From: Corythucha ciliata
Lineage: Eukaryota; Arthropoda; Insecta; Hemiptera; Tingidae
Assembly: GCA_038030265.1 (NCBI GenBank)
Contig: CM075942.1
Location: 38,716,751-38,780,750 of the forward strand
DNA: 64,000 bases
Direction: 5' to 3'
This document shows positions 6,096 through 53,799 of this stretch, piece after piece. A program made the position numbers and the translations under genes. Every line of letters starts with the position of its first letter. Position 1 is the first letter of the stretch. A model generated the notes under the pieces. The model was given only the letters and a program-made list of their open reading frames with translations, searched no databases and was not told where the DNA came from.

Positions 6096-7690
6096 TCACG
6101 GACGATAGAAGTTCGTTGGCCTCACTAAGCGACCATATCTTGTCACGTAAGAAGAGTGATCTTTTCGACGTTCTGGTTCAACTATTGAGTCGGTTGACAG
6201 TTCATTTCGAGCTGAAATTCCACCACTGACTTCCCCCTCAGTAGCCTTTTCTTCTGAGGGACAATCGAAGTCATTCTGATATGGGACAAGCAGTTTTCTA
6301 TTCCTTCGAAATCTTTGAAACCTACATTCAACTGTGTAGTCTCTATCTGATGGGCCATTTGAGTTCGCCACAACAGTTCCATATTGCTTTCTGTCCCGAA
6401 TCCACACTTTCTCGCCCACATTTAAGTGCCGAAGGTGTCTGGCGTTGTGCCTTCTGTCGATATAAAATTTTTGTTGATCTTTAGTGTTCCTCATCTTCTT
6501 CTTATACATATCTAAATCCGGCCACTTGGGAGTTGATGGAGGTAATGGTAACGATGTACTGATTTTCCTACCGTACAACAGCTCCGCTGGATTAAAACCT
6601 GATTCGAGTGGGGAACTTCTGTAAGCTAACAGACCTTCGTAAAAATCACGATTCTTTTCCAATATGTCTTTTGCAGTCCGAACAGCTCTTTCCGCTTGAC
6701 CATTACATTGTGGATACCTGGGACTTGAGGTGACTAGAGTGAAATTGTACAACCGCAAGAATGAAAGAAATTCCGATGAAGAAAATTGAGGACCATTGTC
6801 TGTTCTAGTGTTATCGGAACACCGTGGCGAGAAAATATGCTTTTTAAAGCAACAATCACGTCCTGAGAAGATTGAGATTTCAGCTCAACAAGCTCAATAA
6901 ATTTCGAGAAGTAGTCCTGTACTACCAAATAGCTTTTACCTTTGAAAAATAACAAATCACCCCCAAGAACATCCTAAGGACCATCCGGCGGATCAGTTGG
7001 AAGCAGAGGTTCACATTTTTCTGGAGAATTTCTTAAACATACGGAACAGTTAGATACCATTCGCCTTACATCGACAGTGATCCCTGGCCACCAAACGCAG
7101 TTCCTCGCTCTCAACGTACATTTATGTACTCCCAAATGACCCTGATGGAGAAGGTTCAAGATTTCTCTTCTCATCTCTTTCGGAACAAAGTACCTCTGAC
7201 ATGCAAGATTAAGCCGTCAAAAACTGTTAAATTTCCTCTTTCCCTGTAGAAATCTGTGTTTTTGAATTTCTCCCATTCGCCGGATAAAATACACTCCTTT
7301 AAACGTAATGAAACTTCGTCCTTGGCCTGAGATTTTTTTAGAAGGTGTATCCGCCTGTCGCAAACAAGAATTGCCGAAACGACTGACGCCACGTGAAGCT
7401 CTGTTTCGTCAAGGGCATCTTTATGATCAACGCCATCTTCTACGGGAAAACTAGAAAGGGCATCAGGCAGGGCAAAATCTTTACCCTTAACGTGTTGAAT
7501 TTCGAAATCAAAGTTTAGAAGTCTCATTCTGAATCTTTGTAACCGAGCAGACAGTTCACCGATAGGTTTCTGACCCAAAATTTGAGCCTAACTGAGTTAA
7601 CGGCTTGTGATCGGTCAGTAAAAGAAAACTTTTACCCATAATGTAAGGCGAGAAACGCTCACAGGCCCATTGGCGCCAGGCGCATTGAAT
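6096..7690 (-). pseudogene. Ty3/gypsy pol fragment: RNase H end and integrase (element 2)
   Basis: Read right to left, this holds the end of an RNase H domain (TDHKPL near 7620, minus strand), an HHCC zinc region near 6990-7180 (HQGHLGVHK then CSVC), the integrase core and a C-terminal region. The catalytic triad can be traced: Asp in the DLLFFKGK segment, Asp in TDNGPQF in a shifted frame near 6800, and Glu in NGQAERAV near 6690. The reading frame is broken by a stop near 6972 and shifts near 6810 and 7170. It is a different gypsy lineage from the sequence to its right and lacks gag, protease and RT. It is a dead fragment. The family assignment is secure, the clade is not. Confidence 0.88.
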
Positions 7691-9954
7691 GCGTCAATGA
7701 CCAATAGGAAGTGAAGTCCGTCAACGGGGCCCGCGAAATCTATGTGTACCCGATTCATTGGGGCTTTGGCGTCACCCCAAGGTTGCACCGGCGCTTTGGG
7801 AGGAATTGCTTTGTTGTCAGCACAGGCTTTACAGCTTTTGACCATGAGTTCTATGTCATTGTTAATGCCAGGCCAATAGACGTGTGATCTGGCGAGCATC
7901 TTCAACTTCACCACTCCGAAGTGCTCTGAATGAAGTTCTGAGAGAACTAAGGTGCGCAACGACTCAGGAACGTATACACGGTCTCTGAGCAGGACGATTC
8001 CATCCAATAGCGAATACTCGGGATTGCACTCTTTGCCCGCTTCTAGACTGTGTGCCAACGACGCTAAGTCTTTGTCGCAAGATGTCGCAGCCCTGATTCG
8101 TTTATAGTCCAGTGAAGCCCCACTAGAAGTGATGCTATTGATGACTTCAGCTTGATATACAGAGGACTCATCCTCGTTTTCTTCGCCGTAGCTCAGAGGA
8201 GCTCTAGATAAGTAGTCCGCGTGCTTGTAGAGGTCAGCCTTCTGATGTTTAATGACGTAATCAAATGCCGATAAAAACGAGGCGTAACGAACAAGACGAG
8301 AAGCCGACATTACTGGTATTTTGGCGTGAGGGCTGAAAATGTGAGTCAGCGGTTTATTATCACTGACAAGCGTGAACTGTCGTCCGTAGAGATAGTTGTA
8401 TAATTTCTTCACTGACCAGAAAATCGCTGTTGCTTCCCGATCGAGTTGGGAGTAACGTTGTTCAACTTTTGTGAGCGCTCGGGAGATGAAGTACACTGGA
8501 CGTTCAACCCCATCGATAATATGTGACAGTATGCCCGAGATAACGTAAGGGCTGGCATCCGTAGCTAAAATTATTGGAAGTTCAGGGTTGAACGGAGTAA
8601 GCACCACCGGACTAGCGATACCTTCCTTGAGGCGCGTGAACGCTCTTTCACAATCGACAGTCCATTTAAATGGTTCCCTTTGTTTCTGGGCGTTTCGCAA
8701 AGCTGCTGTTAGAGTTGAGGCGTCTTTGATGAATTTACCGTAGTACATGATGAGCCCCAGAAAAGATGCAACTTCATCTGCATTATTTGGTCGCGGGGCA
8801 TAAATTATTGCTCTAATTTTGTCTTCCGTTTTCTCAAGCCCGTTTCGGGTTATTCTATGACCAAGAAAATCCACAGCAGGAACAAAAAATTTGCACTTAT
8901 TCCGATTAAGATGGAGGTGCATTTCCCGTAGCTTGGATAGACAGGTGAACAAGCGATCTCTGCATTGTTCCAAGGTTTTGCCCATGATGATGATGTCATC
9001 AAAATAGACAGCGATTCCTTCCATGTCACCAAAAGCATTGTCCATAATACGCTGAAATTCGTTAGGCGCAATTTTAATTCCGAACGCAAGCCTGTTCATT
9101 CTGTACGTGCCTTTTTGCGTTGAGATTGATTGAATTTTAGCACTTTCTTCCGTCATTTGGACATGAAGGTAGGCTTTGTAGACATCCAGTTTGCAGAAGA
9201 AACGGCCGCCCTGCATTTTATTGAAAAGGCTGTCCATTAAAGGCAAAGGATAGCGGTCACTGAAAAGCATTGGATTAACTGTACTTTTGAAATCCACGCA
9301 GAGACGAATTTGGTTTCCAGGTTTGGGAACAATAACAAGAGGTGATCCCCATTCACTTTGGTCTGCACGAGTGATGATACCTTGAGCTTCCATTTGCTCG
9401 AGCTCATGAGAAACCTGATCTTGTAGCTCATAGGGAACTGGACGAGCTTTGACGAACACAGGCGCTGCACCTGGTTTGAGGTTGAGGTTACACAAAACGT
9501 TGGGGATCGTACCTATTTTTTCAGTGAAGATATCAGCAAATGTTTCGAAAATTTTCTCCGGTGTATTCGGAACAGCAACGAGCTGCACATCGGAAACTTG
9601 TGTAATTTCAAGTCCTAGGGGACGCATCCACGAGCGGCCCATGATGGTCACCGCAGATGAAGTCACGATGAATAGATCGAGCATGCAACTCACCGAACCA
9701 CAAGTGACTCTCACGTGAGCGACGCCGAGAGGTCTGAAATACTCTCCCGTGTAAGTTTCGAAGACGACGTCCGATTTGATTAAGCGGCATGACAAATTCA
9801 ACGCCTTGAACGACTTCAAGCTCATGGTTGAAGCACCACTGCCCGAGTCAATCTCGAACTGTACTTTCTGGTGTTCCACGCCAACTGTCAGGTAATATTT
9901 ATTTCCTTTGTCTGGCTCCTGAGAGGCCTGAAAAACTTCGTTCGGGACGTCCAC
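7672..9954 (-). CDS. Ty3/gypsy pol: protease, RT, RNase H, truncated integrase (element 1)
   Basis: A 779-residue open frame. Domains in order: retropepsin-like aspartic protease (IDSGSGAS near residues 34-41); reverse transcriptase with KLDVYKAYLHV and the active-site box YFDD near residue 310; RNase H with TDAS, E and SDNKPL; integrase zinc region (HSEHFG then CKAC) and the first catalytic Asp in HIDFAGP. Family members normally continue through the Asp and Glu of the integrase core. Here the frame leaves homology after VIDAF, about 25 residues before its stop, because the sequence joins element 2 at about 7672-7690. YFDD in place of the commoner YVDD/YIDD is tolerated in some lineages. Gag lies just upstream (to the right). 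The product copied the element's RNA into DNA; this copy cannot integrate on its own. Confidence 0.92.
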
Positions 9955-11751: not shown

Positions 11752-12250
11752 GCTCCTTTTATGCCAAGTAAGTGCGATTTGATCATTAATGTGTCATGTA
11801 GGTGGGTCAGCGGATCTCTGGAGGTCTCGAAGGCGGGACTAAAATTTTTAAAGTTTGGTACATCTCTTGCCCAATCAAGACGATTAACGAGGCCACTTTC
11901 TCTGATCAAGAGGGCGTTAGCACCACCTTCCTCGGTCACCCCATTGGATTCCGTGCCTTTCCACATCAGGCCACCATTGAGACGATATGCGACACTGGTT
12001 TGAAGATCCTCCGCTCGAAATTAACACCATGGCAACGCCTTGACGCCTTCAAATCGTTCGTAATTCCGGCCATGAATTTTCCAATGCGTACCGGCACGTT
12101 CAACAAGACGGACTGGGAAAGACTGGACCGCATCTTCCGAGCCGAACTCAAAGCCACACTCAACCTGCCCCAGGAAGCGGCCAACGAATATATTTACGGC
12201 GCCCGCTCTGAAGGTCTGTGTGGAGTGCCGCTTCCCTCGGAAGAGAGTGT
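11752..12250 (+). pseudogene. Non-LTR retrotransposon copy 1: RT C-terminal and thumb region (RLE type)
   Basis: The start contains PSKCDL and a downstream FLGHPIGF segment, typical of the region after the catalytic FADD box of R2/NeSL-type reverse transcriptases, followed by a thumb-like stretch (LTPWQRLDAFKSFVIPAM) and SEGLCGVPLPSEES. Two frames overlap before 11820, so there is at least one shift. The sequence stops abruptly at 12250, where an LTR begins, and resumes at 17795 after the other copy of GAGTG with the expected next residues SDIALIDSGF. The 5' half, including the catalytic RT boxes, is absent. Copy 2 at 19.14-21.12 kb holds the N-terminal part of a related element. Confidence 0.85.
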
Positions 12251-12368
12251 GTTATAGGAAATTACCTTCAAAGAATTAGGCTTTATTCAGCAAAAACAAA
12301 TATCGAAATAAAAGTAAACTAATTTAAAAATGATGATCATGTGTCGGTCAACATATTATCCTACTACA
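12251..12368 (-). repeat. LTR (3' LTR of element 3), 118 bp
   Basis: It runs from TGTTATAGG to CTACTACA and is nearly identical to 17679-17794. On the minus strand it contains the polyadenylation signal AATAAA inside GCTGAATAAAGCC. The outer side is flanked by GAGTG (12246-12250), matching 17795-17799. On the inner side the minus strand shows the purine-rich AAGGAGAAAGAA, a fitting polypurine tract. Confidence 0.92.
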
Positions 12369-12616
12369 TTCTTTCTCCTTAGTCTAGAACGTAGTCTTCC
12401 AGGTACCTGGGTCTGCGAGGTGTTCGAGCAGAGCGTCGCAACTCAGAACCAGTTTCATGAGTCATTGGTGGCGAAGGGTTGTCGTGTTGTTCATGCGGCT
12501 GCGAAGTTGGTTCGACGAGTAGGTTATCTTCGACCGAAACTTCATTCGAACGCTCGTGACCTCCTGTCGGAGCCAGATGCTTCAGGGAGACAGTTGTTTC
12601 TCTTCCATCTGGCAGT

Positions 12617-13063
12617 CTAACGAAAGCGTCGGTACTCGGGGTTTGCTTCGATCAAGTCCACTTCGTCAACACATGGGTCATATTTACTGGCTCTGACGTT
12701 TCGCCTGAGGAGAACCTCTCCAGGTTTGCATAACCAATTTGGAAGAGATGATCCGTGCGTTGATTTCCTGATGTGCGTAAACATTCTGTCGTGAGGACTA
12801 CAATTTGTTGCTGTACACAATAAAGACCGTACACCGTTTAACACAATATCCCACTGACTAGGCTTCAAGTTACTAGTTTTCAAGGCTAGCTCGACGGTTT
12901 TCCAAATAGTGCCATTGTAACGTTCTACTTGACCGTTGCATTGTGGATTATACGCTGTAGTTCTGCTCGTGGCTACTCCACTTGAATGAAGGAATTCTTT
13001 GAGTTGTTCCGACATGAAATTTGATCCTCGGTCTGAGTGTATGTATGCTGGTAGGCCGAACAT
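12617..13063 (-). pseudogene. Ty3/gypsy integrase core, second part (element 3)
   Basis: This carries the second catalytic Asp in HSDRGSNF and the Glu in NGQVERYNGTIWK, at the spacing expected for a DD35E integrase, followed by a C-terminal tail. It joins the part at 13090-13476 across a small frame break near 13065-13100. Integrase would insert the DNA copy into the host chromosome. The DDE residues survive, but the element lacks RT and cannot move by itself. Confidence 0.88.
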
Positions 13064-13089
13064 CGAGAAAAGGCCAGTGAGATGCTTGA

Positions 13090-13476
13090 TTATTGTTGTA
13101 GCGGATAGGTCGGTACAAGGGTAGGCAAAAGGGAATCTAGATATTTATCTATTATCATAAGGATGTACCGTTTTCCGGTCGATGACGTCGGAACTGGTCC
13201 TTTGAAATCAATATTCAGGCGTTCGAAGGGCGCAATCGCCTTTATCAAAGTGCCAACTTCCTTTTTGTAAAATCGCGGCTTAAGTTCACAACAAACCTTG
13301 CAAGAGGAAGTTACTTGTCTGATTTCCTCTACCGAAAATGGCAAGTTTTTGCTTCGAATCCAGTGAGTCATCCGTGTGACTCCCGGGTGGCACATGTCTT
13401 CGTGAATTTTTCTGAGTTCAGATTTGATAGTAAGCGTCGAGGTAGGTAAACCGGTTGATAGTTTGTAAGTAGTCAA
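13090..13476 (-). pseudogene. Ty3/gypsy integrase zinc domain and first Asp (element 3)
   Basis: The HHCC zinc finger is seen as HEDMCHPGVTRMTH then CKVC, and the first catalytic Asp lies in NIDFKGPVP. The N-terminal residues up to about TLTIK derive from sequence at the edge of a deletion. A shifted frame just upstream shows VKNGKKRRMIVDY and TINRFT, the beginning of the RT domain, so RT and RNase H were removed by one internal deletion. Confidence 0.88.
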
Positions 13477-13580
13477 CTATCATCCTCCGTTTTTTGCCGT
13501 TTTTCACGACAAAGACTGCTCTTTTCAATTATGTTATTTTCGAGAAGTATATTTGTAAAGTCCTACTCCATAGAACTTTA
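13477..13580 (-). pseudogene. Stub of the reverse transcriptase N-terminus (element 3)
   Basis: Translated in a shifted frame this reads NIIEKS, VKNGKKRRMIVDY and INRFT, the usual start of a gypsy RT. Everything beyond, including the catalytic box, is missing. The stub runs straight into the integrase zinc region. Confidence 0.7.
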
Positions 13581-13654
13581 AAAGGCAGCACGGCGAATTC
13601 TATTTCATCGCCGTTGTCACAATTCTTTCTGTTTTCGTTATACTTTGACTTTTA

Positions 13655-16122
13655 GTTCGTGAGCTAGCGACAGTCCCATTCAACTGAAAGAACATAGTCA
13701 CTAAAGGTATGCAAAATGATGGCATTTGACCCCCTGTATACAAGTCCGGAAGTCTGCTATGCTGTATCTGGGGCCTAAGGATTTTATAGCTAATTAAAGT
13801 CCTTAATTTGGGACATGAATTTAACCAGAAGAACATAGTCCTGAAACTAGTCTCATTCGAAAGGTTTTATGGAGCTGATTACGAATATGATCGTCTGCCG
13901 CCGTCTACCTGGGGCATTTGCCCTCAGTGGCTCGCCAAACTCACGAAATTCAGTAAACTTTAATTAAACGGAAGAACATAGTCCTGAAACTGGTTTTATT
14001 CGGAAGGATCTATGGAGATTATTATAAATATAATCGTCTGCCTGGGGCACTCGCCCTCGGTGGCCAGTCAAACTCCCTGAATATTAGTTAACCGGAAAAA
14101 CTAAGTCCGGAATATTGTCTTATGCGACAGGTTTCATGTGGCTGAATACGAAAATGACCATCTGCCTGGGGCACTAGCTCTCAGTGACCCCTTAAACTAT
14201 ACAGAGGGAAAATGATTAACAGGAAGAATATAGTCGTGAAACTAGTCTCTTTCGAAAGGTTCAATAGAGCTGATTTCGAAAATGATCATCTGCTGGTGTC
14301 TGCCTGGGGCATCTGCCCTCTGTGGCTCGCTAAACTCACATAATTTGGGAAATTTTAATTAACCGGAAGAACATAGTCCTGAAACTGGTCTTATTCGATA
14401 GAATTTATGGGAATGATTACAAATATAATCGTCTGGCGACATCCAGACGATGCATTTGCCCTCGGTTGCTGGTCAAACTTCTTACATCAGGGATATTATT
14501 CTTAACCGAAAAAACTAGGTCCGGAAAATGGTCCTATGCAACAGGTTTTATGTGGCTGAATACGAAAATGACTGTCTGCCGGTGTCTGCCTGGGGCACTT
14601 TCCCTCAGTGACCAGTCAAACTGCACAGAGGGATAATAATTAACCGGAAGAGCATAGTCCTGAAACTAATCTCATTCGAAAGGTTTTATGTAGCTGATTT
14701 CGAATATGATAGTTTAGCGAGCCACAAAGGGCAAATGCCCCAAACACACGCCGCCAGACGATCATATTCGTAATATTCTCCAGCAAACCTTTCGAATGAG
14801 ATTAGTTTCAGGACTATGTTCTTCCGGTTAATCATTTTCCCTTTGTTCAGGTTGATCGGTCACTAAGGGCAAGTGCCCCTGGTGGACCCTGGCAGACGAT
14901 CATTTTCGTCGTATTCAGCCACATAAAAACCGTTGCAAAAGACTATTTTCCGGACTTAGTTATTCTGGTTAATTAATATCCCTGATTTAGGAAGTTTGAC
15001 TGGCCACTGAGGGCGAATGCTCCAGGCAGACGGCGGCAGACGATCATATTCGTAATCAGCTCTATTAAACATTTCGAATGAGACTAGTGTAACGGGGGGG
15101 GGGGGATTTTTGGGGCTTTTGGGACCGTTACAGAGGAGACAGGACAAAATAATGAAATCACGAGTTAACGCTCTAACTTTATTAACTTAACTAACAATCA
15201 AAAACCTCTTAGAACTTGTTAACTACCGGGGGGGGGGGGCACAATGACACTGAGGGAACTAACCGAGCGGCCGAGGCACACTCGAGCCGGCGGCTGGCGA
15301 TCGACTCCTTTATTTCGGCACTCCGTCCACCTGGAAAACTCAGGATTGGGTAAGAGGGGAATTGAAACTAGGTTGTCTATTGCGACACTTGCCGTGCCGT
15401 TCAATTGAACTTTGGACTCTTAGCTCAGCCCCCTGTCCCACACCGTAATGTCGTAGGCAACCTCGGGACCGGCAACCTTCGTCACCCTTGCGTAGCGCAC
15501 GTTACACTAGTTTCACGACTATGTTCTTCCGATTAGTCATATTCTCCCTGTGCAGTTTGACGGGTCACCGAGGGCAAATACCCTAGGCAGGCACCGGCAG
15601 ACGATCATTTCCGTATTCAGCCACATGAAAGCTGTCGCATAAGGCAGTATTCCGGATTTAGTTTTTCCGGTTAATTAATATCCCTGATTCAGGGAGTTTG
15701 GCAGGTCACTGAGGGCAAGTGCCCCAGACAGACGCCGGTAGACGTATATATATTTGTAATCATTTCCAAAAAACCTATCGAATAGGACCAGTTTCAGGAC
15801 TATGTTCTTTCGGTTAATTAAAATTTTCCAAATTTCGAGAGTTTGGCGAGCCACAAAAGGCAAATACCCCAGGCAGACGGCGTCAGACGATCATATTCGT
15901 AATCAGCTCCATAAAACCTTTCGAATGAGACTAGTTTCTGGACTATGTTCTTCTGGTTAAATTCATGTCCCAAATTAAGGACTTTAATTAGCTATAAAAT
16001 CCTTAGGCCCCAGATACAGCAAGGCAGACTTCCGGATTTGTATATAGGGGGTCAAATGCCATCATTTTGCATACCTTTCGTGACTATGTTCTTCCGGTTG
16101 GATGGAACTGTCGCCAGCTCTC
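13655..16122. mobile_element. Foldback element: 7 + 7 inverted ~140-bp units
   Basis: The two arms mirror each other from AGCTAGCGACAGTCCCATTCAA (left, first 20 bases shown only in part elsewhere) to the inverse near 16122. The same peptide-like frame reads outward on both sides (13600-13836 minus; 15945-16196 plus), a by-product of the inversion. Each arm holds about seven degenerate units containing CGGAAGAACATAGTCCTGAA and GGGCAAATGCCC; the symmetry centre is near 14710. No transposase gene is seen. It lies between the protease and RT stub of element 3, and its right arm is interrupted by a solo LTR. Confidence 0.85.
15088..15506 (-). mobile_element. Solo LTR (419 bp) with CTAG duplication
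   Basis: It begins TGTAAC and ends GTTACA, with CTAG on each side (15084-15087 and 15507-15510), a 4-bp TSD usual for Ty3/gypsy. Minus-strand AATAAA signals occur near 15179 and 15312, suggesting minus orientation. It interrupts one repeat unit of the foldback. Two runs of at least eleven G lie inside. No internal gypsy sequence remains, so it arose by LTR-LTR recombination. Confidence 0.85.
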
Positions 16123-16241
16123 GGTCTATTTGTCCTCAATTCTTTCATTGCAATGTAAATCTTCCTTCCCCCTTCTGTTCCCTCTCTAGTCTTTAGTTAT
16201 GTTTTGTACTCCGATGCGGAAGGATCATGTATTTTGATTTC

Positions 16242-16685
16242 TTATTTACAGGTACGAGTATTGTGCCAAATATTTTCATTTATTTTCAATGATGGCAATA
16301 ATACCTTATTTACAGCAATCAAAGCGTGATACCCTTCCGGGAAATAATCTTGCATATTGATTTCGTTTTGTATGAACTTGAAATCGTCTGGTGAATGCCG
16401 CCTTGATTTAGTGGCAATTGGTCGACAGTCGACCGAAAGATTTGAAAATAATGTCACCGGCTTGACTATTACTGAAACCACGTTACAAAAATGGAGGGAA
16501 GGGAGTGAACCTCCAAAAGAAAATTCTACAGAGGAGTGGTTTCGAAGTAGGTCGTGACCAATGATTACGTCGGTGCACAGATTGTTAAGAACGAAAACCT
16601 TTTGATTTTTGTAGTTGTTGCCTAATAGCTGAAGACTGATGATGCAGGATCCTACTATTGGCGTAGTTATGGTAGATGACGCCAT
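16242..16685 (-). pseudogene. Ty3/gypsy protease continuation and linker (element 3)
   Basis: The frame continues the protease fold with the typical C-terminal block DVIIGHDLLRNH, then a linker leading to RT. The active-site Asp lies in the neighbouring frame at about 16770 (DTGSS), so a frame break separates them near 16680. Sequence to the left is lost into the foldback. Confidence 0.82.
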
Positions 16686-17356
16686 TGAAACAGTTCTGCG
16701 TTCGATTTTTCGATTGATATTTTCAATTTTCTGGCTATCGCGTCACTGATGAAGCTCAAGGAGCTGCCCGTGTCGATTAGAGCGTTAATTTTTGACCCGT
16801 TAATGTGAACGTAAGTAATAGCCTTTTTTAAACATGTTGTCGGCATTGAACAAATTACGCTCGATAAATAATTGTCATTGATATAATTTTCATTTTCTTC
16901 GACGTTTAGAGCGGAACTTTGGTTAATGGTTTGTTTCCGGCTCAAACAAACTTTTGAAAAATGCCCCTTTTTTCCACAAGAGTTACAAAGTGACTCCCTA
17001 GCGGGGCACTGGCTTCTAAAATGTAAGTCTGCGCCACAGAAATAACATGTTGACTTTTGGTTCTTTGATTCTCGAGACGGCGTGAATCTTTCCTTCATCG
17101 CGGCGCTAGTGAAGTTAGGAGAATTTATTTGATAAATTTCAGACTGTTGTTGCGCCATTTCGAGCGATAGAGCTAATTGTTCTGCTTCGTCTAGACCGAG
17201 TTTTATATTTTCAAGCAAGCGTTGTCTAATTTGGTTTGAGGATAATCCTCGGATAAATGCGTCCCTAATACAGTCGTTCTTGTTTTTTTCCGCGGTGACA
17301 GCGTCGAAATTACACTCATTACTTAACTCTTTCAAAACTTGAACGTATTGATTCAA
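16667..17356 (-). pseudogene. Ty3/gypsy gag nucleocapsid and protease active site (element 3)
   Basis: The first half is helical gag sequence. Two zinc knuckles follow: CYFCGADLHFRSQC (Cys in place of the usual spacing residue set) and CNSCGKKGHFSKVC. The protease active site is LIDTGSSLSFI near residues 205-215. Its N-terminal neighbour at 17458-17661 is in another frame, so gag is broken near 17360-17470. Gag packs the RNA; the protease matures the particle. Confidence 0.85.
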
Positions 17357-17457
17357 CGATTCTCCCGGTTGTTGCGTTCTAAAAGCGAGCTTATGCCTCG
17401 CGAAAATTTCGTTGACAGGTTTGACGTACAGATTTTCCAGTCCACTTAACGCTTCTG

Positions 17458-17661
17458 TTATCGTTGTGATCGTTGTGAAATTACTGATGTGACGAAAGGA
17501 GATACGTAATTGACTAGTAGCCGAAACTTTTGATTTTCATCAGCGTCAGGCACTGAATCAAGGAAGTAAGAAAATGTCGTCTTCCAGTGAATCCAGTCTT
17601 GATTTGACGTAGCTGATGATGGATCGACGACGAATCGTTCAGGTCTCAAAAGTTTGTCCAT
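17458..17661 (-). pseudogene. Ty3/gypsy gag N-terminus (element 3)
   Basis: The frame begins MDKLLRPERFVVDPSS and includes DWIHWKTTFSYFL, a pattern seen at the start of gag in some insect gypsy lineages. The ATG overlaps the last bases of the putative primer-binding site. The frame ends after 67 codons by a shift; capsid homology resumes at 17356. Confidence 0.8.
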
Positions 17662-17677
17662 GTTTTTGCTGAATAAA
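17661..17677 (-). promoter_or_regulatory. Primer-binding site complementary to its own LTR (putative self-priming)
   Basis: One base inside the 5' LTR (17679 onward) lies a 17-mer, TTTATTCAGCAAAAACA on the minus strand. The identical 17-mer lies on the plus strand inside both LTRs (17711-17727 and about 12283-12299), so the element's RNA contains two perfectly complementary 17-mers, one at the primer-binding position. No tRNA-like match was recognised. Self-priming is known from the Tf1/sushi type of gypsy elements. Confidence 0.6.
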
Positions 17678-17678
17678 T

Positions 17679-17794
17679 TGTTATAGGAAATTACCTTCTA
17701 AGAATTAGGCTTTATTCAGCAAAAACAAATATCGAAATAAAACTAAACTAATTTAAAAATGATGATCATGTGTCGGTCAACATATCTCACTAGA
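17679..17794 (-). repeat. LTR (5' LTR of element 3), 116 bp
   Basis: It pairs with 12251-12368. The outer end has decayed (CACTAGA in place of CTACTACA) and is followed by the TSD GAGTG at 17795-17799. Internal differences from its partner are few, mostly single bases, which suggests the insertion is not ancient relative to the rest. Confidence 0.9.
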
Positions 17795-18973
17795 GAGTGA
17801 CATCGCACTCATTGATAGCGGGTTCAAACTTCTCACGAGCCGCGACGAGATTCTCGCACGAGACGCTCTCCAGCACCTCTCGGCGTGCCTGCCCCGACAT
17901 GTCCCTCCCGACGACGATCATCGCGCCATGTTCCTCTCCGGACAAGACCTAGGCAGAAGCTCTCTCCCCGGCAGCTGCTGGTCTCGCGCCCGTGCAGCCT
18001 CCCGCCGTCTGCCGATCTCCTGGACGTTCTCCTCCTCATTACCTACTGTACACGTAGGAGAACACACCCTGGGACCCGCGGACCGTCGAAGGATCTGCCG
18101 CTCAATCCGTCAGATGTGCCATCGAAAGCGTGGAGACACCCTACGACTCAAACCACAGCAGGCCGCGTAGCTAAATGCCTCACAAACGCCCCCGACAGCT
18201 GTCACTTCATGTATACCGGCCTTTATGTGGCCTTCGCCGACTCGCGTTTCGTCCATCGAGGCCAACTAGACATCTGTCCCCTCCGAGGCAATAACCATCG
18301 AGGGAATCCCCGCAATTGCCGTCGCTGTTCATGCCCGATAGAGTCCCTGGCACATGTTCTCGACCACTGCCTCCCTCAGTCATCATACTACCAACGTCGT
18401 CACAACACCATCGTCGACCGTCTCGAGCAGGCCGCGCTCGGCTCCCGATTCTCGGTCGTTGGGAAGAACACATCCGTCGATGGTTCTCGCCTTCGCCCGG
18501 ACCTTGTCCTCCGCCGAAACTCCGAGATTCTTATCATCGATGTGACAGTTCCATTCGAAAACGGTGAAACAGCCTTCACCGAAGCTCGCCAGCGAAAGCT
18601 TGAAAAATACGAGTCAGCGAAACAGAATCTGTCGGCGGATGGCTCGCGGGCGAAGATCATACCTGTCATCGTGGCTGCGCTGGGAACATGGGACCGAAAC
18701 AACGACGCAGACCTGAAGAAACTTTGCGCCCGCCGATACCACAAGACCATGAGTCGATTGATGTGTATCGACGCATTAGCGTGGTCGCGGAAAATCTACA
18801 TTCACCATCTCTCTGGCCAGCCGATCGCCCACGATATACCCGCCCCGGAGACTGGCAGCAGTCCGACCATCGCCGAGCGTGACGACGACCCCGACGACAA
18901 CCCCCCACACGAAGATGTCGCGGAGACGCAAGCCTCCAGCACTAGATTGACTATATGTATAATTACACCTTGA
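17795..18973 (+). pseudogene. Non-LTR retrotransposon copy 1: CCHC finger and restriction-like endonuclease
   Basis: The first frame (17795-18170) continues the RT thumb with SDIALIDSGF. A shift near 18150-18170 leads to the second frame, which ends at 18973. That frame has a CCHC finger CRRCSCPIESLAHVLDHC near residue 150 and a PD-(D/E)XK endonuclease: RPDLVLR, then IIDVTVPFE, then KLEKYE. This arrangement is the hallmark of R2/NeSL-type elements, whose endonuclease cuts a specific site to prime reverse transcription. Apart from the frameshift the endonuclease residues are intact. The U2 snRNA match at its 3' edge suggests the U2-targeting NeSL-type group named Utopia. Confidence 0.88.
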
Positions 18974-19119
18974 ACTTATAATTTCCCCTGACCACGTGAT
19001 TTATTCAACTTGTAACATGCCTATTTTGTAATCAAGCCTTCTTACCATACATACTGTACTCAAAACAAACACCTTCGCGTGGTATGTAACCATTAATGTG
19101 TAATTATGAAATCAATAAA
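18974..19119 (+). other. 3' untranslated region of non-LTR copy 1
   Basis: About 145 bases follow the stop and end in ATCAATAAA. There is no long poly-A tail. The next base starts a match to U2 snRNA, so 19119 is taken as the 3' end of the element. Confidence 0.7.
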
Positions 19120-19141
19120 ATCTGTTCTTATCAGCTTAATA
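19120..19141 (+). ncRNA. U2 snRNA fragment between two non-LTR copies (target remnant)
   Basis: The 22 bases starting ATCTGTTCTTATCAGCTT match, base for base as I recall it, the conserved segment of metazoan U2 snRNA just after the branch-site-pairing GUAGU, in the insect form (AGCTTAA). The match ends at 19141, where unrelated sequence starts. It is far too short to be a functional U2 gene. Confidence 0.78.
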
Positions 19142-19660
19142 AGAGTGTACACCCTCTTGGATTTCATCATCTACGACCTCCTGTGAGTAGTAATTCTCGT
19201 CAGGCCTTCAGCCCAGAGTTTTGCCTTTCACATTCAGTGGGAACACTCGGTTCTCCACATAGGACCCCTCAGCTCACCCTAACGGCATTTAGCCTACCTA
19301 GCAGGTTTCACTCTGAAACTTTGTTTGTAAGCCCTCAGCTGTTTGGACTGTTCACTTTCACTTTTCAAATCCGCTCTCCACCCTTGTTGTTCTATCATCC
19401 CTCTCCCTCAGGGCCCTTTCACTTTCGCTTTAGTCTCACCCTCCTCACTTCCTCATTCACCCCGACCCACTGCTCTTCTTTTCTCCCGGCCTTCAGCCCC
19501 GTTCCTTTTTGCCCCCGCCACCACAGTGCTATACTCTGATCTGAAGCGTTGTTATATGTCGCGAAAATGCCTCCAAGTTATTAAAATACGCGTGCTAACA
19601 ATTCAGTGAGTGTGTTAAACTACAAGCTATTTCTCGTCAAAGTCAGGACGCGCCGGTTCG
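19142..19660 (+). other. Pyrimidine-rich 5' region of non-LTR copy 2
   Basis: A C/T-rich stretch lies between the U2 fragment and the first coding homology. Long open frames on the plus strand (19096-19539, 19343-19609) are composed of Pro, Ser, Phe and Leu and reflect base composition. I take it as the 5' untranslated region of copy 2. Confidence 0.55.
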
Positions 19661-21118
19661 CCTCCTCATAAACCAGCTGTTCTCACTTGCCACCACCCAC
19701 TGCCGCAACTGCCTTCAGGACAAACGATTCTCGCGTGTCCGGTGTGGACTTCATGCCCCCTACAGGGGGTGGAGCCCCCTGTAGACATCAATAGCGTGTG
19801 ATCTTCGCCAAGGCTTCCCATCTCCTTGAACGACATGAGTCCGCTCGTCATACCACCCGCAACCCCTTCAAACGTTCCGGACAACCCCGAGACGGAGCCA
19901 TCCATATTCGACATCCCACAATCGCCGGCTCCATCTATCGCACTTGCGCCGCGTTCCCCTTTATAATTCGGCCAACGACGTAGGCCCCCAAATTCGCCGC
20001 AACACGACCACCAACCACGACAAGAGCCCCTCACCGGAAGTTTCGAACCCGCAGCTGACGGTGCCTTAGAATCGCCACTGTCGGCCTTCGGGCCACGATT
20101 GCGTCACATGAACGCCTCACCTCGTCTCGCATGGAGCATATTCGAAGACATTATTGCAGAGATCATCAAGGCTGCCCAACAACACCTTCGGCTCACCACT
20201 ATCGAGGGCCCCACATCCCCCCTCACGAGTCATCAATGTCGAAGACGCAAAGACGATTCAAGGTGTATACTGTCGTAATCGGCGAAAAGCCATCCGAGCT
20301 ATCGTAGGATCCCAGACAGCCCGCTGCATGGCCCCCGCCGAAGAAGTCACCGACCACTTCCACAATATCTGGGCGACTCGACGTGAGTTTGACGCTGCCG
20401 TCTTAGATAACATCATTCACGCGGATCGATCCATTAACATGACCCCCTTCACCCATGAAGAGGTCACCCGCCACTGATCTCGCTTCGAGACCACCGCCCG
20501 CGGCCCAGATCGCCTTGACTACAATGCCTGAAAAACATTGGACTCTGAGGCTCACGTGCTGACACAAATTTTCAATACCTGTCTCCTACGACACCGTATC
20601 CCCACCAGCTGGAAGAAATCGACCACAATTCTCATACCTGAAAATGAGAATCCTGAAACCCTGGCCGACTGGCGACCAATCGCCCTCTCTTCAACACTGT
20701 ACAAGATGTTCGCCGGACTCCTGGCTGACCGAGTCGCGTCATGGGTGCTCAGCGAACAACGTCCTCTCTCCGGCGCAAAAAGGATTTAAGGCCTACGATG
20801 GTGTCCTAGAGCACAACTATGCCCTACACACTTACTCCACCAGGCACGGACCCAGCGTGAAAATCTATACGTCGCCTGGATGGACATAACTAACGCCTTC
20901 GGTGCCCTGCCCCATGACGCCATCATCGCCACCTTCCGTCAACGTGGACCAGGTGACGCCTTTTGTGACATCCTCCGTGACGCTCTTACGGACCTCTCCA
21001 CCTCCGTTCGGTGCGGAGATACGACGACGCCTTCCATCCCCGTCCTATGTGGAGTCCGCAATGTCACGATCAACATTGCGCTTGAACACATCTACCATGA
21101 AGGAAGCCCCGCTAAGGG
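19660..21118 (+). pseudogene. Non-LTR retrotransposon copy 2: zinc fingers and N-terminal half of RT
   Basis: Degenerate C2H2-type fingers are visible near 19680-19740 (CRNC then H) and 19800-19850 (FAKASHLLERHESARH). RT homology starts near 20240: VEDAKTIQGVYCRNRRKAIR, then WRPIALSSTLYKMFAGLLADR (20660-20730), then the motif-A box DITNAFGALPHDAI (20882-20925), and stops after VLCGVRN near 21060. Several stops and shifts (near 20478, 20531, 20788) disable it. The RT middle, thumb and endonuclease are missing, with P-element-like sequence from about 21120. It lies head-to-tail behind copy 1. Confidence 0.82.
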
Positions 21119-21122
21119 ATAA

Positions 21123-21981
21123 AGCTGGGACATAAATTGACCAAGCACCATGTTCACTTCGGGAATGACAAGATGAAAGTCAAATACGCAGCTCAGCTAT
21201 GTATTAGGTCAGTTGCTGACGCTTTAAAATATTGCTTGGAAAATCTAGTGCTCGGGTTCGAGGATTGCGAAGCGACTATCACTTTTTAGTCGTGTTCAAA
21301 GACATTTTTGACATATTAAATGCAACAAGCCTGAATGATAAATATCTTAAGCAGGCCATGTACGAAAAAAAATCTGAACATCCTGAACCAAAAGATGGAT
21401 GCAGTTGGCCTTTATATTAAAGGCTAAAGAGTAACCCGTCAATCCGGAGATATCATCGTTCCGGAAAACCCTGTGTGTGACTGTCAAAGATAATAATAAT
21501 AATAATAATAATAAACCGATTTATTGTAGAGACCCAAACGGGCATTACAACGTGAAATTTAAAATCACAGAGACAAAGGCTTCCACGAGCAGAGAGCGTC
21601 CTTCACCTCATCCACGGAGTAGCAGGCAGATAAACGGGATTCCTAGGGTTTTTAATGGCAATCAACTCTACAACAAGTCTGTATACCTCTTTGGTGGAAA
21701 AGCGAAAGCTGAAGTGTTTAGCTATGTACAAAGCAAACCAGGACCACATTGAAAGACTTTTAGGGTACATTTGGGGGCGATCAGGCAGAAATGATAATCC
21801 ATCGGCCTTTGAATTTACTCATATATGGAAAAAAAGTACTGAAAACGCGGTTCCCTTGGACAAAATAACTTTTCTGGCGGTCAGTAACGCGAGGATTCGG
21901 GATCTTCTTAAGCCTGAAAGAAAAAAATTGAACTGCGTGCAACTGATAAATAGCACTCTACCGAATGAAGGCTTGAGTTAG
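21123..21981 (+). pseudogene. P-element-like (THAP9-type) transposase, central part
   Basis: The sequence starts with KLTKHHVHF and KMKVKYAAQL, typical of the region preceding the GTP-binding part of P-type transposases, and continues with VFKDIFDILNATSLN after a frame change near 21286. After a (TAA)n microsatellite it gives TGFLGFLMA, then ANQDHIERLLGYIWGRSGRNDNPS (first part only quoted here as landmarks: NQDHIE, GRNDNP), the strongly conserved C-terminal block of P transposases. Frame breaks are at 21286 and about 21430-21630. The gene would excise and reinsert the P element; this copy is dead. Confidence 0.85.
21490..21515. repeat. (TAA)n microsatellite
   Basis: About eight TAA units lie within the decayed P-element-like coding region. 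Confidence 0.95.
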
Positions 21982-52294: not shown

Positions 52295-53799
52295 CAGGGT
52301 GGTCGGTTTTGAGTAGCAAAAAAAAAATTGGGTAATAGTACACCAAAAATGGGATAAAAAAGTCCTATTCGGATAGTGACCTATCTCTTTTTGTTTTCGA
52401 GTAATAATTTTTTTAGTGATTTTTAGCCGCAACTGAATTTTTCGCCGAAAAGCTGTTATTTCTCAGCTTCTACTTCACTTTTTTCCAAAAGTGATGGCAG
52501 TTTCGTAATCTACGGAAAATTTTCTACGGGATGAACGCAAAATCAATATTCTAAATCGTCAAAAACGCCTAAAAACGTAACGTATTCGTTGCGTTAATGC
52601 AAAAAAACCAATAATTTGACTTCACAAAACAATTTACTGTGTCACCAAAAATAGCTTCACACGTTGTCAAACGACGTAAAAACTTCTCTGTTTTTCCAGC
52701 TTTCCAACGGTGTACTCGAAAGTAGAATTATCTCCCTCCTTTGACGAGAAATTTCGAAAAGAAGCGAAAAAGTCATACATTTTGGGCTAAAAATGTGAGT
52801 AATAACAGGTGCGAAAATTCATTTGTTTGGCTCTCTTTCTTGAGAAATCCAAGCGCTGGCACAGTAAAAATTAAAATGTATTGCATTTGAAGAATAAACA
52901 ACAAACAAACAAATTAATTAATAAACTGGACGACGAGGTGTGCGAATTTAGGGCGTCTGCTGGTTTTTTATTTTTTTATTTTGTTTTTATGTGTTGGACA
53001 TGGTCCATGAACACCCTCACATTAGCAACGCCGAAGATGTCGACGGAACTTGCAATTCCACGATGGAAACTCAAGTTCCGTCGACATCTTCGGCTGCTAA
53101 TGTGAGGGTATAAAAGAGGATAAAAATAAAAAACCAGCAGACGCCCTAAATTCGCACACCTCTTCGTCCATTTTATTAAATTTTTTATTAGTTGTTTATT
53201 CTTCAAATGCAATATTATTTTAATTTTTCTTGTGCCAGAGCTTGGTTTTCTCAAGAAAGAGAGCAAAACAAATGAATTTACGCACCTGTTATTATTCACA
53301 TTTTTAGCCCAAAATGTATCACTTTTTCGCTTCTTTTCGAATTTTCTCGTCAAAGGAGGGAGATAATTCAACTTTCGAGTACACCGTTGGAAAGCTGGGA
53401 AAACGGAGAAGTTTTTATGACGTTTGACAACGTGTGAAGCAATTTTTGGTGACACAGTAAATTGTTTTATGAAGTCAAATTTTTGGTTTTTTTTGCATTA
53501 ACGCAACGAAACGTTACGTTTTTAGGCGTTTTTGACCGATTTAGAATATTGATTTTGCTATTTTCCCATAGCAAATTTTCCGTAGATTACGAAACTGTCA
53601 TTACTTTTGAAAAAAAGTGAAGTAGAAGCTGAGAAATAACTGTTTTTCGTTGAAAAATACAGTTGCGCCTAAAAATCACTAAAAAAATTATTACTCAAAA
53701 ACAAAAAGAGATAGGCCACTATCCGAATAGGACTTTTTTATCCCATTTTTGGTGTACTATTACCCATTTTTTTTTTGCTACTCAAAACAGACCACCCTG
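52295..53799. mobile_element. Near-perfect palindromic element, CAGGGTGGTCGG ends (1,505 bp)
   Basis: The whole element is an inverted repeat with arms of about 740 bp: CAGGGTGGTCGGTTTTGAGT at the left mirrors CAGGGTGGTCTGTTTTGAGT at the right, and the mirror continues to the centre at 53040-53070 (GAACTTGCAATTCCACGATG...). TA/TATATA flanks. It holds no gene. Arms differ only slightly, implying recent formation or gene conversion. Confidence 0.9.

Follow-up and report, generated by a model that had tools for sequence, protein, structure and literature searches.

A probable tandem of two Utopia-like elements of different families joined across one U2 snRNA target site duplication

Organization of the locus

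The window, meaning the whole stretch of 64,000 nucleotides that was analysed, contains two incomplete Utopia-like non-LTR elements. They lie head to tail, in the order copy 1 3' half, a single stretch of U2 nt 39-59 and copy 2 5' half (Table 1). The first-pass annotation had described two copies joined head to tail, and this was confirmed by the 3' end of copy 1, the 21-mer and the 5' end of copy 2. The extent that it gave to copy 1 was too short, and the frame runs upstream from 12249 to approximately 11802. The left edge of copy 1 is uncertain, with relatives matching from 11802 and the protein of an element with an open frame on contig C5 matching from 11910 (its residue 720).

Table 1. 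Features around the U2 junction in the window.
Feature	Position	Strand	Basis
Copy 1, first piece: RT-thumb region of a Utopia-like protein	11802..12249	+	tblastn, C5 protein and relatives
Gypsy-like LTR element inside copy 1	12250..17792 (ends approximate)	-	terminal repeats, domain matches
Copy 1, second piece: CCHC and PD..D RLE region, 3' UTR ending ATCAATAAA	17793..19119	+	tblastn, C5 protein 831-1175
U2 39-59, the target site duplication (TSD)	19120..19140	+	100% to host U2; both flanks of the C5 element
Copy 2: 5' UTR, zinc-finger and RT N-terminal coding region, C5 family	19141..21114	+	blastn, tblastn
Repeat fragment joined to copy 2, neither Utopia nor U2	21115..21758	+	93% and 96% over two stretches, L042:186-687

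Copy 1 is split by a Gypsy-like element whose terminal repeats (12250-12356 and 17679-17785) are 98% identical. Among the minus-strand frames of this element there are matches to aspartyl-protease and zinc-knuckle domains, and a match to an integrase core that falls under the Pfam cut-off. A Gypsy-like pol frame is found at 7615-9954, and its best named matches are from a firefly, two psyllids, a fruit fly and a mealybug. Past the Gypsy-like element, the frame of copy 1 restarts at approximately 17793 (tblastn). The CCHC and PD..D motifs of this second piece, which encodes the restriction-like endonuclease (RLE), were identified by eye. It is 91% identical by BLAST to a Utopia copy on contig C2. 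The C2 copy starts (L002:442) within approximately 20 bases of the Gypsy-like entry point in copy 1 (window 17812), and no common cause was found. The RLE frame of copy 1 (17885-18973) also matches Pfam L_protein_N (PF15518) under the cut-off (E 1.7e-4), and the relative P0002 carries the same precomputed label.

Copy 2 corresponds to the 5' half of the C5 element, with 84-91% identity by blastn, and to residues 1-649 of the C5 protein by tblastn. At 19746/19770, approximately 410 bp present in the C5 element are missing from copy 2. Its 3' half is absent, and it contains frameshifts and stops. It breaks off just before the YADD motif, and the alignment of the adjoining repeat begins where copy 2 breaks. 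This repeat is presumably THAP/P-element-like, as judged by eye. Elsewhere in the window, a long near-perfect hairpin at 53009-53113 (minus strand) matched three miRNA models, all below their cut-offs, and is probably a small inverted-repeat element.

The U2 junction

When the host U2 snRNA gene was compared with the window by BLAST, nt 39-59 were matched at 19120-19140 with 100% identity over 21 nt. Six further matches were listed, of 11-16 bp and with E values of 1.4 or worse. The terminus of copy 1, ATCAATAAA, is followed by ATCTGTTCTTATCAGCTTAAT and then by the start of copy 2, AAGAGTGTACACC. In longer context, the sequence reads GAAATCAATAAA at the end of copy 1, then ATCTGTTCTTATCAGCTTAAT, then AAGAGTGTACACCC in copy 2. 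An uninterrupted U2 gene on C5 (L004:1294-1487; Rfam RF00004, 180.6 bits) reads ATCGC...GTGTAGT, ATCTGTTCTTATCAGCTTAAT and CTCTGG....

A U2 fragment of 22 nt had been reported between the copies. The match to U2 is perfect, but its length is 21 nt. Past nt 59 the host U2 reads AATCTCTGG, with C at position 60, and thus only 21 nt of the junction are U2 and the 22-nt reading is ruled out. The 22nd base (A) is the 5' end of the element, which begins AAGAGTG on C5 as well.

No U2 1-38 was found upstream of copy 1, and no U2 60-192 downstream of copy 2, when the window was searched by BLAST. In the surroundings (L040-L042, L009, L043, and L044), the only U2 is a separate gene in L040. Because the outer U2 parts are missing, it is from the junction alone that we infer the insertion of the pair in a U2 gene. 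The window lies on the 71.5-Mb contig C6 (38716751-38780750), and the junction is 41.5 kb from the U2 gene at C6:38694318. This gene (L016) has four differences, and its upstream region is unlike that of the other U2 genes. It may be a divergent U2 gene or a retrocopy, and it may not be the donor.

The filled U2 gene on contig C5

On the minus strand of C5, a U2 gene is interrupted by a 4292-bp element whose single open frame spans 1223 codons without a stop. The layout is U2 1-59, element, U2 39-end, and therefore the element is flanked by a 21-bp TSD of U2 39-59. Both flanks are 100% identical to U2 and, when joined with the 21-mer counted once, give an uninterrupted U2 sequence. An uninterrupted U2 gene lies approximately 5 kb away in the opposite orientation, and a U5 gene lies approximately 9.5 kb away.

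The C5 protein has the architecture of Utopia, which is an N-terminal zinc finger, a central reverse transcriptase (RT), a C-terminal zinc finger and a PD..D-type RLE in one ORF. The RT was identified by Pfam RVT_1 (E 1.8e-26). The C2H2 finger scored 22.4 bits, under the Pfam cut-off of 25.2, and the CCHC and PD..D motifs were read by eye. Both the RT and the C-terminal stretch align to R2 proteins in the PDB. No APE-type endonuclease was found among the Pfam matches (E up to 0.1). These results support the earlier assignment to RLE-type, Utopia-like, U2-specific non-LTR elements. A ribozyme at the 5' end of the element was also considered and was rejected on an Rfam scan of the U2/5'-end stretch, where no ribozyme family was found (E up to 10) and the matches were U2 and two weak snoRNA only.

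The spacing of the window copies is exactly one TSD, and the 21-mer between them is identical to the TSD on C5. Therefore, the window can be read as a Utopia copy 1, one TSD and a Utopia copy 2. The copies are separated by the TSD in its full length of 21 nt, and thus both would have used the identical cut site. Copy 2 had been placed just downstream of copy 1 in the same target. The shared U2 target stands, but the site was not further downstream, and either copy was possibly first.

U2 sites and Utopia copies in the assembly

With at most three mismatches allowed, the 21-mer occurs at 38 places in the assembly, and a reversed control pattern occurs at 8. This census covers U2 stretches with up to three changes, and divergent U2 genes or more changed copies would escape it. 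Eight of the sites are exact and 30 have two or three mismatches; 30 of the 38 were inspected. All 8 exact sites are at U2 genes or Utopia junctions. They are four uninterrupted U2 genes, the pair of TSDs on C5, the 3' junction of the C2 copy and the junction in the window. The uninterrupted genes, two on C1, one on C5 and the one on C6, all score as U2. Thus, the exact matches lay out a whole low-copy target setting, with four uninterrupted genes, one filled gene whose element has no stops, and a decayed tandem.

The two C1 genes (C1:52793414 and C1:52803690; L010, L011, L045, and L046) are near-identical and form an inverted pair, with a U5 gene approximately 0.9 kb from each. At the 22 mismatch sites that were inspected, no Utopia DNA was found. 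One of them (L023) has an RT of another kind, 27% identical. Fourteen of the 22 (L020-L029, L031-L033, and L038) belong, as judged by eye, to an inverted-repeat family with GTTCTTATCAG(T/C)TTAATAAGA, which is near U2 41-59 plus the first Utopia bases. This likeness is taken as coincidence. A stretch in L034 has a many-changed likeness to U2 around the branch-site region (ATCTGTTCCTATCAGTTTAAC) and is not called U2 at the Rfam cut-off. It is perhaps a U2 pseudogene.

The first-pass annotation had proposed that other 3' ends be compared and that the host U2 be searched for the fragment. All three readable 3' ends (C5, C2, and the window) are joined to U2 39, and the 21-mer is present in the host U2 genes. 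At both readable 5' ends, the element is preceded by U2 59. On C2, the copy is truncated at its 5' end, has one stop in the aligned frame and is followed by U2 39-99 at 95% identity. Pieces of 28S rRNA lie around it (L005:6861-7416), together with seven RT frames at C2:30388950-30594641 whose identity to Utopia is 26-30%. These surroundings may be an rDNA region that carries R2-like elements.

When the C5 frame was used as a protein query, 39 matches were obtained. Utopia-like matches (at least 43% identity) were found at at least five places, which are C5, C1, C2, and the two window copies; the number is a lower bound since 38 of the 5271 candidates were scored, and the fragment in L009 described below was not among them. 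The remaining matches are 26-30% identical and were taken as other LINE families. The C1 copy, 97-98% identical to C5 and truncated at either end, is located approximately 3.5 kb from a U2 gene. Neither it nor the L009 fragment has a 3' end that could be scored for a U2 39 junction. Relatives were also sought in viral contigs with the pea-aphid protein P0019 as the query, and in bacterial genome contigs with the C5 protein as the query, and none were found in either.

One family or two

The RT of copy 2 is 84% identical to C5 (292 columns). Copy 1 is 66% identical to C5 in the thumb (114 columns) and 63% in the RLE (219 columns). Among the relatives, the RT is 78-88% identical in 18 of 4654 pairs, and in none of the 18 is the thumb below 67% or the RLE below 66%; proteins are common to several pairs, and hence the pairs are not independent. 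It therefore appears that the copies belong to different families. Most simply, copy 1 and the C2 copy would form family A, and copy 2 would belong with C5 and C1 to another family. This divergence of the proteins favours two insertions at one site.

Changes specific to copy 2 number 22, 16, and 38 at codon positions 1, 2, and 3, and changes between copy 1 and C2 number 15, 16, and 36. The surplus at the third position suggests that selection acted during part of the divergence of both pairs, with decay of the window copies coming afterwards. An RT tree with R2 as the root places C5 and copy 2 together with Apolygus (SH-aLRT 99), and copy 2 fills 32% of the columns. The tree has 30 rows (25 of the 120 listed matches, three R2, C5, and copy 2) and is without NeSL or R5 references. 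The nearest neighbour of the RLE element in it is the plant bug Apolygus lucorum. Since transposon proteins of the window are closest to ones from insects and other arthropods, the host is probably an insect.

A short Utopia fragment was found by BLAST of the neighbouring DNA, approximately 4 kb past the end of the window (L009:4012-4231, or C6:38784712-38784931, minus strand). It has 178 bp of family A RLE, 91% identical to copy 1 and 90% to C2. Twelve bases after the RLE, there are 33 bp of 5' UTR, 91% identical to copy 2. In this fragment, as in the window, a 3' part adjoins a 5' part, but the junction itself is deleted.

Origin of the tandem

The locus is probably a tandem of two Utopia-like, U2-targeted RLE elements of different families, which inserted at the same U2 site at different times. 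The endonuclease would nick the bottom strand at U2 38/39, and reverse transcription would be primed at the nick, beginning from the 3' end of the element. A cut of the top strand after nt 59 would then leave 21 bp on each side. The second element would use one of the duplicated sites, probably the 5' one, which would still have U2 1-38. The resulting order would be U2 1-59, copy 1, U2 39-59, copy 2, U2 39-end. Afterwards, deletion and rearrangement would have stripped away the outer U2 parts together with the far half of each copy, and the Gypsy-like element would have split copy 1. We favour copy 2 arriving first and copy 1 second, into the TSD 5' of copy 2, by analogy with R1 tandems, which are explained by insertion into the 5' TSD of a resident element. 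The reverse order of arrival would leave the same sequence.

Two observations count against two insertions. One is the L009 adjacency of family A RLE and 5' UTR. The other is that the break points nearly coincide, at C5 residue ~694-720 in copy 1 and 649 in copy 2, because independent decay does not predict this. An unlikely alternative, in which one mosaic element passed through a circle, would accommodate both. Recombination between the TSDs would free the element with one 21-mer and heal the U2 gene, and the circle would reopen in the RT region and be rejoined elsewhere. The window does hold approximately one unit length in permuted order, from the copy 1 break to the end of the protein, the 3' UTR, the 21-mer, the 5' UTR, and residues 1-649, with only ~44-70 residues missing at the opening. 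Non-Utopia sequence is present at both outer edges, and the outer U2 is gone. However, the halves differ like separate families relative to C5, and so a mosaic element must be assumed. Such an element is possible since the family A copies found all lack a 5' half. By rough estimate, chance would also bring the breaks this close together a few percent of the time. If the circle were true, it would be a route that clears a U2-specific parasite from a scarce essential gene and leaves a permuted relic near by.

The RT of R2 is capable of end-to-end template jumping. Both copies could thus come from one integration, in which the RT jumped from a copy 2 RNA, co-transcribed with U2 39-59 at its 5' end, to the 3' end of a copy 1 RNA. 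The 21-mer could then be the RNA's own 5' leader, but the length of the leader would need to equal the TSD exactly, and the Rfam scan of the C5 5' end gave no ribozyme. We consider this improbable. About equally improbable is an exchange within the 21 bp, by recombination or gene conversion, between two U2 genes that each carried a single Utopia copy. Exchange between U2 genes is plausible, given the inverted pair on C1 that is identical over 190 bp, but only 21 bp are shared at the exchange point. A chance match or an assembly misjoin is highly improbable, and chance is ruled out for the 21-mer itself, with approximately 0.0002 exact copies expected in 401 Mb of random sequence versus the 8 found; each half-junction occurs independently on C5 or C2, copy 2 is decayed, and copy 1 holds the Gypsy-like element with its similar terminal repeats.

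Comparison with known systems

Utopia is an RLE-type non-LTR element followed downstream by U2 sequence that begins at nt 39 (Kojima and Jurka, 2015; PMC4640811). Its proteins have an N-terminal zinc finger, an RT, a C-terminal zinc finger, and an RLE, and the strict families have few copies (PMC4640811). Utopia-1_NVit is described as forming tandem insertions, and of 117 3' junctions from Nasonia, 28 lead into another Utopia (Table 4 of PMC4640811). The element described here shares with Utopia the U2 39 junction, the RLE, the order of domains, the low copy number, and the tandem. Thus, both a Utopia-type element and the stacking of its copies are already known. Two points differ. In that paper, the TSD is given as none in arthropod Utopia families and as 20 bp in reptile families, whereas a 21-bp TSD is present on C5. 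This would be new for a Utopia of the arthropod lineage and supplies its cleavage offset (21 bp); if the host is an arthropod, the published generalisation is corrected to that extent. The tandem also joins two different families, and this mix within one tandem appears to be new. It would mean that two families use one site. The genome could help to test how elements persist on a handful of essential target genes.

R1 elements have an APE-type endonuclease. Their tandems in Drosophila have copies one TSD apart (14 bp of 28S), an arrangement ascribed to new copies entering the TSD on the 5' side of an element already in place (Stage and Eickbush, 2009; PMC2718515). The likeness lies in successive copies at one site that are separated by exactly one TSD. 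The clade, the target, and the endonuclease are different. In addition, R1-type arrays sit in the target gene, whereas the window pair is without U2 1-38 or 60-192. Keno uses the same U2 site with an APE-type endonuclease (described in PMC4640811). The element described here differs from it in having an RLE and a C-terminal region that aligns to R2.
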